From positions 1 to 64,000 of the forward strand of contig NZ_PBYA01000058.1 of assembly GCF_002729955.1 (NCBI RefSeq): a DNA stretch of 64,000 nt. The letters run 5' to 3'. The position numbers were made by a program, and so were the translations under genes. This document shows positions 1,182 to 4,584 of the stretch, in pieces (position 1 is the stretch's first letter; every line of letters starts with the position of its first letter). This stretch comes from Salinisphaera sp. (GTDB taxonomy: Bacteria > Pseudomonadota > Gammaproteobacteria > Nevskiales > Salinisphaeraceae). The notes beneath the pieces were generated by a model. The model was not told the origin of the DNA, ran no database searches, and saw only the letters and a list, made by a program, of their open reading frames with translations.

Positions 1182-1204
1182 GGGTACAGCATAGCGTGAA
1201 CGAC

Positions 1205-1221
1205 GCCGACGTTGCGTCGGC
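1205..1221. repeat. Inverted repeat between glrK-like gene and pmbA
   Basis: GCCGACG and CGTCGGC form perfect 7-bp arms around a TTG centre in the 95-bp gap between two divergent genes. It could be an operator or a small hairpin in the pmbA leader. No function is assigned. Confidence 0.35.
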
Positions 1222-1276
1222 AGGCCCTGCGGGGCTAACGTCTGGCGCTTGTTTTGCGTCCCGAGAGACCCCCTGC

Positions 1277-2650
1277 ATGACCGGCATTTCTGCAGTCGAT
1301 ACGTCACCCGCTGAAAGCGAGAGCGGCCTGCCACAACTGGCCTGGCTGGAAGCACGCACGCGCGAGTTGCTTGCCGAAGCAGAGCGTCGCGGCGCCGATC
1401 AGGCCGAGGTATCGCTGTCGGCTTCGCGGGCGCTTTCGGTGACCGCCCGAGCGCGCCAGCGTGAATCGGTCGAGCACGAAGGCGATTGCGCGGCGAGCCT
1501 GACCGTTTACTGCGGCCAGCGTAGTGGCAGCGCTTCCACGACCGATCTGACCGGCGACGGGCTGTGCGCCGCCCTCGACCAGGCGCTGACCATCGCCCGC
1601 TTTACCGAAGCCGATACGTTTGCCGGACTCGCCGATGCCGAGCTCATGGCCGGCGAACAGCCCGATCTGTCGCTTTATCATCCCTGGTCGCTGGATGCCG
1701 AGCAGGCGCTGGAAATGGCGCTGGAACTCGAGGCCGCCGCGCTCGATTACGATGAACGTATCGCCCAGACCGAGGGCGCCACGGTCGCCAGTCGCGACGG
1801 TGTAAGCGTCTACGGCAACAGCCACGGCTTCGTCGGCGGCGAGCGCGCCAGCCGCCATGCGCTCAGTTGCCAGCCGCTGGCCCGCGGCGATGCCGGCATG
1901 CAGCGGGAGGTCGCCTTCTCGCAGGCGCGCCACGTTGATGATCTGCAGGCTGTCACGGACGTCGGACGCCTCGCCGCCGAGCGCGCGGTGTCAAGGCTTG
2001 GCGCCCGCACACCGCCGACCACCACGGCATCGGTGCTGTTCACGCCGCGCGTGGCACGGGGGCTGTGGGGACATCTCATCAGCGCGATCAGCGGCGGCGC
2101 GCTCTATCGCAATGCCAGTTTCCTCAAGGATCGGATCGATGAATCGATCGCGGTCGATGCGCTGACGCTGAGCCAGCATCCACACCGGCCGCGTGGGCTG
2201 GCCAGTGCGGCCTTCGATGGCGACGGCGTGGCCACCGCCGAGCGCACGCTGGTTGAGCGCGGCGTGCTGCGGGGCTATGTGCTCTCGGCTTATACCGCCC
2301 GCCGCCTGGGCCTGGCCTCGACCGGCAACGCCGGCGGCGTGTTCAACCTCGACGTGGCCCCCGGCACGGATGATTTCGACGCGCTCGTCGCCGGCATGGG
2401 GCGCGGGCTGGTGGTGACCGAACTCATGGGCCAGGGCGTCAACCTCGTCAACGGCGATTACTCGCGCGGCGCGGCCGGTTTCTGGGTCGAGAACGGCGAG
2501 ATCGCCTATCCGGTCGAGAACGCCACGATCGCCGGCAATCTGGCCGAGATGTACCAGGGTATCGACGCCCTTGGCAGCGATGTCGATTTCGGCGCGGCCC
2601 TGCGTACGCCGTCGGTGTTGATCGGGTCGATGACGATCGCCGGGCAGTGA
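1277..2650 (+). CDS. pmbA: PmbA/TldE, metalloprotease-like modulator of the TldD/TldE pair
   Basis: A 457-residue protein of the PmbA/TldD family; E. coli PmbA has 450 residues. In that family TldD and TldE (PmbA) form a cytoplasmic protease that matures peptides such as microcin B17 and degrades CcdA. Typical features include the N-terminal stretch on coding for self-modification of small substrates and the glycine-rich C-terminal half with GNAGGVFNLDV and MGQGVNLVNGDYSRGAAGF. The frame is open upstream to 1196, but those residues look like non-coding sequence, so ATG 1277 was chosen. The usual neighbour yjgA/darP and the partner tldD are not in the window. Confidence 0.92.
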   Translation: MTGISAVDTSPAESESGLPQLAWLEARTRELLAEAERRGADQAEVSLSASRALSVTARARQRESVEHEGDCAASLTVYCGQRSGSASTTDLTGDGLCAALDQALTIARFTEADTFAGLADAELMAGEQPDLSLYHPWSLDAEQALEMALELEAAALDYDERIAQTEGATVASRDGVSVYGNSHGFVGGERASRHALSCQPLARGDAGMQREVAFSQARHVDDLQAVTDVGRLAAERAVSRLGARTPPTTTASVLFTPRVARGLWGHLISAISGGALYRNASFLKDRIDESIAVDALTLSQHPHRPRGLASAAFDGDGVATAERTLVERGVLRGYVLSAYTARRLGLASTGNAGGVFNLDVAPGTDDFDALVAGMGRGLVVTELMGQGVNLVNGDYSRGAAGFWVENGEIAYPVENATIAGNLAEMYQGIDALGSDVDFGAALRTPSVLIGSMTIAGQ

Positions 2651-2825
2651 TTCGGTCTCGTGTTCGTCTGACAGTCCGCAAATGAACGCGAAGACACGCA
2701 AATAAGGCGGTCGCTAGGGTTGGTTCGGGCTTCGCATCGTAAGCCGGCAGGCAAGCGCCGCCGAGCATCCGGGTCGAATCGCGTACAGGGGTGCCATTCT
2801 TTGCGGGATGACGCTTCGCTACGCC

Positions 2826-2851
2826 GGCCGACTGGCCGACTGGCCGACTGG
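2826..2851. repeat. 8-bp tandem repeat (GGCCGACT x3)
   Basis: Three perfect head-to-tail copies of GGCCGACT followed by a partial GG, inside the gene-free region downstream of pmbA. It is a potential slippage site with no visible coding role. Confidence 0.7.
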
Positions 2852-2939
2852 ATCAATTGCGGTCGAATTGTCCGCAAATGAACGCGATGTGGCTAGGCAG
2901 ATAGATCAGGGGCAAGTGACCCCTGCTACACGCGCGGTC

Positions 2940-2964
2940 GTACATACCCAAGAACGGGTTGTAC
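2940..2964. repeat. Imperfect hairpin in repeat-rich spacer
   Basis: GTACATACCC and GGGTTGTAC pair with one bulged base around an AAGAAC loop. There is no adjacent T-run, so it is not a typical intrinsic terminator. Confidence 0.4.
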
Positions 2965-3177
2965 AAGGCGAGTTTGCTAGGTGTTTCTCATTTGCGCTTT
3001 TCGCGTTCATTTGCGGACTTTTTCCTTCTGGCCGAAGACCGCAAGCCAATACGCAATTGCCGGATTGGCGGCTTGAAGCACTCAGGTCGAATCTTCGACA
3101 GGCGCTGCGGTAATGACGCGATTACGCTGCGCTCATCCAACTCACGAGGCGCTCATTCGAGCGACGAGGCCGGCCCG

Positions 3178-4542
3178 TTAGCGCAGCAGAAACAGTGTGC
3201 CCAGGCCGAGGAAGGCGCCGAAGCCGATGACGTCGGTGATGGTGGTCAGCACCACCGAGCCCGCCAGCGCCGGGTCGATGCCCATCTTCTTCATGGCCAG
3301 CGGAATGGCTACGCCGGCGATGGCGGCGCCGATCTGATTGATAATCAGCGCCACGGCGATGATCACGCCCAGGGTGGGGTTGCCGAACCAGACCTGTGCG
3401 ACCACGCCGACCACCGCGCCCCAGAGGATGCCGTTGATCACGGCCACCGCCAGTTCCTTGATTAACAGCGTCTTGGCGTTGCCGAAGCCGATCTGGCCGA
3501 GTGACAGGCCGCGAATCATGAGCGTGAGCGTCTGCGAGCCGCCGATACCGCCCATGCTGGCTACGATCGGCATGAGTACGGCCAATGCCACCACCTGCGA
3601 CAGGGTGGCTTCGAACAGGCCGACCACCTGGGCCGCCAGAAACGCGGTGAGCAGGTTCGCGCCCAGCCAGGTGGCGCGTCGGCGCGCGCTACGCGCGATC
3701 GGTGCGAAGACGTCTTCTTCCTCGTCGAGGCCGGCCATGCTCATGATCGAATGCTCGGCCTCGTCGCGGATCACGTCCACCACGTCGTCGATGGTGATCC
3801 GGCCGACCAGCTTTTCGTTTTCGTCGACCACCGGCGCCGAGATCAGGTCGAGGTCCTGAAAGCGCTTGGCGACCTGGGCGGCGGACATATCGACCGGCAG
3901 GGCTTCGATATCGGTGTTCATCACCTCGGAGACGTCACGCTCGGGGTCGAGCGTGAGCAGCTTGGCCAGTGTGAGCATGCCCAGATAGCGGCCGTAGCGC
4001 GAAATCACGAACAGCGATTCGGTATCGTCGGGCAGGGTGCCGCGCTGCTGCAGATAGCGGCGTACGACATCCAGCGACACGTCCGGGCGGACGGTGATGG
4101 TGTCGTTGTTCATCAGGCCGCCGGCCGAATCCGAAGGATAGGACAGCACCGCTTCCAGGCGTTCGCGATTGTCTAGGTCCATCGTATGCAGGACTTCGCG
4201 GGTGACCTGCTCGGGCAGGTCCTCAATGAGATCCGCGAGGTCGTCGATCGGCATGCCTTCGGTGGCCGCCAGCAGCACATCGTCGTCGAGGGCGTCGATG
4301 AGTTCGGCGCGCACCTCGTCGTTGACGTGCAGCAGCGTTTCGCCGTGATCGTCTTCGGGAACGAGTCGCCAGACCAGCTCGCGCTTGGTGCGCGGGATCG
4401 ATTCCAGCAGCAGCCCGATTTCCGCCGGGGAGAGCGAATGCAGCATCGGCTTGAGCCGACGCATGCGCCCGGATTCCAGCGCCTCGTTTAGATGCGCGAG
4501 CCGCGATTCCATCTGATTTTCAGTGGTCTTGGCGTCGCTCAT
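3178..4542 (-). CDS. mgtE: Magnesium transporter MgtE
   Basis: A 454-residue magnesium channel of the MgtE family, of usual length. The order is an N-terminal helical MgtE_N domain (about residues 20-130), a CBS pair (about 135-260) that senses cytosolic Mg2+, and a C-terminal membrane domain of five segments. The pore-region stretch ASMGGIGGSQTLTLMIRGL is clear. Start ATG 4542 (MSDAKTTENQ) was preferred over an in-frame codon 36 bp upstream that would add a non-conserved extension. It is the last gene of the block running from kdsD, 204 bp after ptsI, and could also have its own promoter. Confidence 0.95.
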   Translation of the reverse strand: MSDAKTTENQMESRLAHLNEALESGRMRRLKPMLHSLSPAEIGLLLESIPRTKRELVWRLVPEDDHGETLLHVNDEVRAELIDALDDDVLLAATEGMPIDDLADLIEDLPEQVTREVLHTMDLDNRERLEAVLSYPSDSAGGLMNNDTITVRPDVSLDVVRRYLQQRGTLPDDTESLFVISRYGRYLGMLTLAKLLTLDPERDVSEVMNTDIEALPVDMSAAQVAKRFQDLDLISAPVVDENEKLVGRITIDDVVDVIRDEAEHSIMSMAGLDEEEDVFAPIARSARRRATWLGANLLTAFLAAQVVGLFEATLSQVVALAVLMPIVASMGGIGGSQTLTLMIRGLSLGQIGFGNAKTLLIKELAVAVINGILWGAVVGVVAQVWFGNPTLGVIIAVALIINQIGAAIAGVAIPLAMKKMGIDPALAGSVVLTTITDVIGFGAFLGLGTLFLLR

Positions 4543-4568
4543 CGCAGCGCATGCTCGAATCGTTGGGT

Positions 4569-4584
4569 GGTATTTCAAAATACC
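4569..4584. promoter_or_regulatory. AT-rich palindrome upstream of mgtE
   Basis: GGTATTT-CA-AAATACC forms perfect 7-bp arms 27 bp upstream of the mgtE start, in an unusually AT-rich pocket. It could be a repressor operator or a leader hairpin. No known regulator site is recognised. Confidence 0.35.

Follow-up and report, generated by a model that had tools for sequence, protein, structure and literature searches.

The 527-bp spacer at positions 2651-3177 of the window (the whole stretch of DNA analysed here, 64,000 nucleotides long) apparently holds gene-less relatives of a class of mobile element that we have not found described. Its repeats are copies of a periodic arm that is scattered over the genome and that, in inverted orientation, brackets small genes of the GxxExxY family in bacteria and archaea. 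We consider it probable that these arms are the ends of a GxxExxY-associated mobile element, whose route of movement we leave open, with homing by recombination as the main rival. A complete element would consist of an arm, a GxxExxY gene and a reversed arm, about 0.45 kb altogether, and gene-less forms such as that at 2870-3018 would be its dispersed, non-autonomous relatives.

The spacer separates two ORFs that we take to be pmbA (1196..2650, forward strand, its last 201 residues having homologues in all 41 of the 41 genomes searched) and, convergent to it, mgtE (3178..4578, reverse strand, with synteny in relatives). The 17-mer GTCCGCAAATGAACGCG occurs exactly at 2674-2690 and 2870-2886 on the forward strand and at 3002-3018 on the reverse strand, which agrees with an earlier note on this DNA that had counted the motif twice direct and once inverted in the spacer. 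The 64-kb window has no further match at up to 3 mismatches; in a shuffle control, the mean was 0.58 matches at this threshold, and three matches were reached in 1 of 100 shuffles. As an exact repeat, the motif extends to 20 nt between 2673-2692 and 3000-3019, and to 18 nt once 2870-2887 is included. The same note had seen two copies extend at a period of 9-10 bp. This is the case for the copy at 2674, which runs on as GTCCGCAAAT GAACGCGAAG ACACGCAAAT AAGG, and for that at 3018, which, read backwards, runs on as GTCCGCAAAT GAACGCGAAAA GCGCAAAT GAGAA, whereas the copy at 2870 has no periodic continuation.

We distinguish two components among these repeats. A single outer arm of about three decamer units (2673..2707, forward strand) is the older one, and a decayed counterpart of it is present in G006, the nearest relative by neighbour protein. 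The second is an inward-facing arm pair of 149 bp without a GxxExxY gene (2870..3018), whose arms are absent from the aligned G006 spacer; its left arm (2870..2887, forward strand) has no third unit, while its right arm (2985..3019, reverse strand) has continuing units. Two small predicted hairpins lie within this element, CAGGGG-N7-CCCCTG at 2907..2925 and an imperfect one, GTACATACCC / GGGTTGTAC, at 2940..2964. A known RNA family was rejected for the spacer, because Rfam gave no match within 2400-3400 at E <= 1.

The window's own genome (G000; other G numbers denote other genomes compared) comprises 3.84 Mb in 58 contigs and contains 94 sites of the 17-mer at up to two mismatches, 29 of them exact, as compared to 0 for a reversed-pattern control. 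These sites group into 60 clusters. The genome-wide motif search that the earlier note had called for thus shows that the motif is not restricted to this spacer, and its reading of a dispersed element, rather than of decayed coding sequence, holds. Aligned, the sites read GTCCGCAAAT GAACGCGAAT AAACGCGAAT AA, with a period of 10. In a manual count of neighbouring site pairs, 20 of 34 face inward, 4 outward and 10 in the same direction; with up to 3 mismatches allowed per arm, 28 inward pairs lie within 450 bp. The protein-binding array that the earlier note had also envisaged is plausible from the 9-10-bp period; binding itself is something that we infer from the sequence. At one locus (L039, 1501-2257), a related arm, GACCGCGAATG..., stands in four direct copies about 250 bp apart, which form a tandem array.

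In the 28 pairs, arms show no greater similarity within an element than between elements (similarity/complementarity of 17.8 versus 17.6; 1722 of 5000 shuffles as high, and 1188 of 5000 once tandem copies are excluded). We therefore reject simple pairing between arms as the reason why they are conserved; the result favours conservation of a recognised consensus instead. Between the arms, 18 of the 28 interiors match no other genome stretch searched (E 1e-4), and the other 10, among them one subfamily, match some other stretch at the same threshold. The unmatched interiors are not as in ordinary MITEs or as in simple MITE copying; either the interiors decay fast while the arms are kept, or the arms are able to bracket different DNA.

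A target-site duplication at a fixed offset was found neither in 26 of the 28 pairs (two tandem copies were excluded from this test) nor at 69 GxxExxY loci. The longest direct word common to the outer flanks of the pairs was 5.9, versus 5.7 after shuffling (36 of 200 as high), where the true ends are uncertain. For the outer flanks of GxxExxY loci it was 6.2 versus 5.6 (0 of 200), though the shuffle mixes genomes of different composition, which may explain the longer words. By eye, a loose AAGACA / TCTTTC motif can be seen 5-12 nt outside many arms in G000 (e.g., L032, L033, L043 and L050), and the true ends of the element may thus lie further out. Furthermore, at some of the orthologous sites discussed below, the sequence outside the arms differs too, such that the true ends are not fixed.

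The link to GxxExxY comes from a spacer between two genes that, judging from their translations, are presumably carA and carB. At this site (L078/L096), an arm pair of the window's dialect encloses an ORF of 127 amino acids that leaves little room on either side, with its ATG placed where the third decamer ends and its stop codon a few bases short of the right arm. The protein matches TIGR04256 (E 2e-43, 147.3 bits against a cut-off of 35) and PF13366 (PDDEXK_3; E 8e-42). G000 has three PF13366 genes, and all three are located at such arms. The other two, L097 and L098, are found at contig ends (C42 and C25), and what these contigs cover of their arms is of the CCACAGATTTCACAGATTTACACAGATT type: for L097 the left arm is visible and the contig ends inside the gene, and L098 lies between CACAGAT-type arms, the left one being cut by the contig start. 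The metH spacer is where the assembly breaks between the end of C42 and the start of C25; the two sides carry different GxxExxY genes and like arms, which suggests two elements in tandem.

Among the residues that are invariant in 49 GxxExxY sequences are E26, Y29, D65, E75 and K77, of which D65, E75 and K77 form the D ... E-x-K motif of PD-(D/E)XK nucleases. An AlphaFold2 model of the protein (pLDDT 93.5) has its best match in the PDB with 4ic1 (SSO0001, a Cas4 nuclease), at a Foldseek E of 4e-4 and with Z 10.1 and rmsd 3.6 over 100 aligned residues, and the next-ranked folds are lambda-type exonucleases, Hjc and restriction-type folds; by sequence, the PDB gave one weak match (E 0.086). Family, motif and predicted fold together thus point to a PD-(D/E)XK protein, while the fold alone does not establish a function. 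At least 542 relatives from many bacterial phyla and from archaea were found in a scan of genome contigs. The phages searched gave no GxxExxY match, and 8 of 72,556 plasmid records match, all at less than 60% identity. The open-access literature searched yielded no description of flanking arms or of mobility for GxxExxY and no occurrence of six typical arm strings; the family name occurs there in two papers, one of them on reverse transcriptases, where it is mentioned in another context. A prior description may exist in subscription papers, preprints or supplements.

The association of arms with GxxExxY genes extends far beyond the window's genome. For the best 80 of the at least 542 loci, 200 nt upstream of the gene were compared with the reversed 200 nt downstream, and positions displaced by 1-2.2 kb within each locus served as controls; 77 loci were testable, three being dropped for flanks of less than 40 nt. 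At a score of at least 30, arms were detected at 51 of 77 loci, as compared to 2 of 530 shifted controls, and at a score of at least 24 at 57 of 77 loci (controls 23 of 530). At some of the 26 loci that failed at the higher score, arms can still be made out by eye, either outside the tested stretch or on a single side. Self-similarity of the flanks was seen at period 9 in 23 of 154 and at period 10 in 36 of 154, versus 0 and 8 of 1060 controls, and other periods were rare. Among relatives, where a PF13366 family search gave 29 loci and no separate shifted control was run, arms were present at 25 of the 28 testable loci, L097 being excluded for its position at a contig end; of the three negative loci, L258 and L259 have a right arm only, with the left one unclear, and L098 is truncated where its contig ends. 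In other groups, we hand-picked eight GxxExxY carriers (three Planctomycetes, two alphaproteobacteria, one betaproteobacterium, a Methanosarcinales archaeon and NC10), such that this count covers GxxExxY-bearing genomes. The arm pattern occurs in these genomes (G061-G068, in order) 82, 114, 5, 42, 6, 3, 37 and 80 times, and the reversed pattern 0 times.

The arms come in several dialects, which are arrays based on CGCAAAT, CGCAGAT/CACAGAT, CGCAAAG/CGCAGAG, ACAGGAT or ACAGAAT, and these dialects follow the protein. Across 76 loci, the similarity of two arms rises with the identity of their proteins (Mantel r 0.49, or 0.48 with the G+C of the flanks held constant; 0 of 2000 permutations). In 60 of 76 cases, a locus has the dialect of its nearest protein, where the null has a mean of 24.6 and a maximum of 40. 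In the protein tree, whose 107 rows come from a short alignment and which has many weak forks, the dialects need 40 changes, as compared to a mean of 57.5 when shuffled (0 of 200 as low). One group in this tree (support 94/83, under the tool's star) has 11 rows from five phyla by label, and all 8 rows with a dialect label are ACAGGAT/ACAGAAT. It should be kept in mind that near-copies and common descent of linked DNA can also produce dialect clustering and co-variation, and that related genomes are not independent. However, G000, G005, G007, G009 and G013 each have a carA-carB GxxExxY of the AAT dialect and a metH-spacer GxxExxY of the GAT dialect. Since two dialects are thus found in one genome, sorted by protein, the host's base composition does not account for them. 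The carA-carB GxxExxY of G009, a genome of the same genus as G000, has zero distance in the protein tree from that of Salinisphaera sp. UBA1666, which makes Salinisphaera the most likely genus.

The number of dispersed arms likewise varies with the gene. At up to one mismatch, the core has 61 copies in G000 and 0, 16, 0, 5, 22, 6, 42, 2, 10, 4, 0, 0 and 60 copies in 13 relatives of the same genus, and it is present in 15 of 61 genomes searched, G000 included. Genomes with the cognate gene have 61, 22, 42, 10 and 60 copies of the AAT dialect, and those without it 0, 16, 0, 5, 6, 2, 4, 0 and 0 (p 0.002). For the GAT dialect of 9 bp, the median is 65 with the gene (n=11) versus 1 without (n=15; p 3e-5), in counts that include overlapping matches and come from relatives that are not independent. 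Dispersed arms thus are abundant mainly where the cognate GxxExxY exists. There are exceptions to this: G002 (16 and 39 copies) and G053 (56 copies) have arms and no PF13366 match, and G020 and G004 carry a GAT-type gene, yet only 3 and 7 copies.

The sites at which presence and absence of the element were compared include a set of 12 that were hand-picked and not random. At pmbA-mgtE, seven relatives (G001, G003, G005, G007, G009, G010 and G021) have 33-80 nt between the aligned neighbour proteins and no arms, and the spacer of G016 measures 104 nt; G002, G004, G008 and G011 have 138-929 nt without the window's core, and G013 carries arms of another dialect, of the CACAGAT/CGCAGATGAA type. 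The elements at L034 and L043 are absent from G006. The L061 spacer is element-free in G004, G006, G011 and G012, holds a CGCAAAT element in G000, and in G008 a GxxExxY of the CGCAAAG dialect. G004 lacks the element at the L040 and L075 sites, as does G008 at L075, and at each of the two sites G006 has its own arm pair. The carA-carB spacer is 118-130 nt long and armless in G004, G006, G008 and G012; in G000, by contrast, the element takes up almost all of it, leaving 12 and 9 nt to the aligned flanks. This spacer is occupied in 7 loci, two of which (L100 and L244) encode the same protein and could come from a single genome. Such presence/absence at orthologous sites, as is expected of a mobile element, was found at L034, L043, L061 and pmbA-mgtE. 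The long persistence of elements at orthologous spacers is as compatible with slow vertical inheritance as with movement.

Between two metH genes, a GxxExxY is found in 11 genomes (G000, G004-G007, G009, G010, G013, G018, G020 and G027), and arm relics can be seen by eye in G001 and G003. That the element has split metH was rejected, since two metH ORFs already exist in relatives without GxxExxY at this site (G008, G011, G012 and others). In the metH spacer of G002 (L337), there are two small ORFs that by eye look like an antitoxin-toxin pair of the RelB/YafQ type, in the place where other genomes have GxxExxY.

We propose that the arm acts as a short array of 9-10-bp units, each about one turn of the DNA helix, to which the GxxExxY protein would bind, most likely on one face of the DNA. 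The protein would then cut nearby and move or copy the element, and in trans its gene-less relatives, into intergenic spacers, either by transposition or by homing via recombination. In the rival reading of homing rather than transposition, GxxExxY would cut an empty spacer allele into which recombination then copies the element, and the scattered gene-less arms would be old, decayed homing elements. This is conceivable, though we think it unlikely. It would account for the reuse of the same spacers (metH in 11 genomes, carA-carB in 7 loci), for elements of different dialects in the L061 spacer of G000 and G008 and other arms at pmbA-mgtE in G013, and for the lack of a target duplication in the pairs and loci compared. 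However, the dispersed matches, which number from tens to a hundred or more per genome, exceed what allelic homing predicts.

Somewhat less likely still is that the arms act in RNA, such that a hairpin in an operon transcript is excised by RNase III as in the intervening sequences (IVS) of 23S rRNA, with GxxExxY as a passenger. The window's pair at 2870-3018 does fold well, at -36.6 kcal/mol as single-stranded DNA (z -5.9), and 48 of 83 GxxExxY genes are flanked by two ORFs that point the same way (wide set, 38 of 58; relatives, 10 of 25; from crude ORF calling on 83 of 106 loci). Moreover, terminal inverted repeats and processing by RNase III are described for 23S IVS (PMC4990558). Yet the near-equal complementarity of arms within and between elements argues against this explanation, an RNA stem needs neither a 9-10-bp periodicity nor a co-variation of dialect and protein, and the window's pair sits between convergent genes. 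Nor does the window's element belong to the 23S IVS themselves, as it is flanked by protein-coding genes and has no Rfam match at E <= 1, and G000 gave no PF05635 match.

It is improbable that the arms are regulatory or structural sites of the host, bound by a nucleoid or regulatory protein, alongside which GxxExxY tends to insert. The helical-turn periodicity and the intergenic location would suit such sites, and a number of elements sit within tens of bases of ORF ends. But a single genus shows copy numbers between 0 and about 60, several relatives have spacers without the sites, and the dialect tracks GxxExxY and not the host.

Hardly any weight can be given to a purely local duplication, which the 94 dispersed copies at up to two mismatches contradict, or to the classic REP moved by a RAYT that the earlier note had raised, since, although the elements are small and extragenic with inverted copies and the genome has six Y1-transposase (RAYT-type) genes, the fetched flanks of these six contain no core at up to 3 mismatches (L094, one of these loci, has a single site at 4 mismatches), and the two single arms tested fold into a hairpin no better than shuffles (z -1.15 and +0.60). 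The RAYT-type gene at L095 is flanked by palindromes of the GTAGGTTGGNTTAG...AACCCAAC type, different in sequence from the arms, which by eye look like what is probably the genome's real REP. A palindrome similar to the GTAGGTTGGNTTAG.. type beside the RAYT-type gene is also found in the interior of the arm pair at L056.

The logic closest to that of the GxxExxY arms is that of the REP-RAYT papers (PMC2817692, PMC3733652): a RAYT gene lies between two inverted repeats, the repeat is dispersed in tens to hundreds of copies, and repeat and protein co-vary (PMC2817692). The system described here shares with REP/REPIN and RAYT the gene flanked by inverted repeats, the dispersal of the same repeat and the repeat-protein co-variation. 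It differs in that the arms are arrays of 9-10-bp units instead of a GTAG/CGTC-tagged palindrome, and in that the partner is a PD-(D/E)XK family protein and not a Y1 HUH transposase. With MITEs it has in common the short inverted terminal arms (28 inward pairs), the predominance of gene-free copies and a gene-bearing form with the same ends. In apparent contrast to MITEs, no target-site duplication was found in the flanks compared, the interiors are shared only in a minority, and the partner is no known IS transposase.

If the arms indeed are the ends of a GxxExxY-associated mobile element, a common protein family of at least 542 relatives, hardly mentioned in the open-access literature searched, would supply the enzyme for a mobile element that is widespread and whose ends are of a new type. 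This would also give a cause to a class of repeats found between bacterial and archaeal genes, and the dialects would constitute a recognition code of 9-10-bp units versus protein clade that is directly testable.

The design may be more general. We see an even chance that periodic-arm elements form a superclass that spans the phyla of bacteria and archaea, in which a small protein gene, lying between inward arrays of units that its product recognises, spawns tens to a hundred or more gene-less copies per genome, such that much unexplained intergenic repeat DNA would be of one origin. A second, parallel class would be formed by genes for PF05635 four-helix-bundle (IVP) proteins, and would link the puzzle of the 23S rRNA intervening sequences to the same design. 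The 23S IVS with its S23p protein (PF05635) likewise has a small ORF between inverted terminal repeats, and the Coxiella IVS (PMC4990558) is the closest in layout. It is unlike the GxxExxY element in that the proteins are unrelated, the period is 7 bp versus 9-10 bp, and the window's element lies outside rRNA. PF05635 gave a match in 26 of 150 genomes drawn from the phylum. Of 30 such loci (L277-L306), 25 were tested, five weak or partial matches being excluded, and one of the 25 fell at an edge; inward arms were found at 15 of the 24 testable loci, as compared to 0 of 96 controls. These arms have a period of 7 in 22 of 49 flanks, versus 3 of 194 in controls. The TAGGCAG array, with 0 copies in G000 and in two of six PF05635 genomes, has 39, 26, 15 and 6 copies in the other four (overlaps counted).
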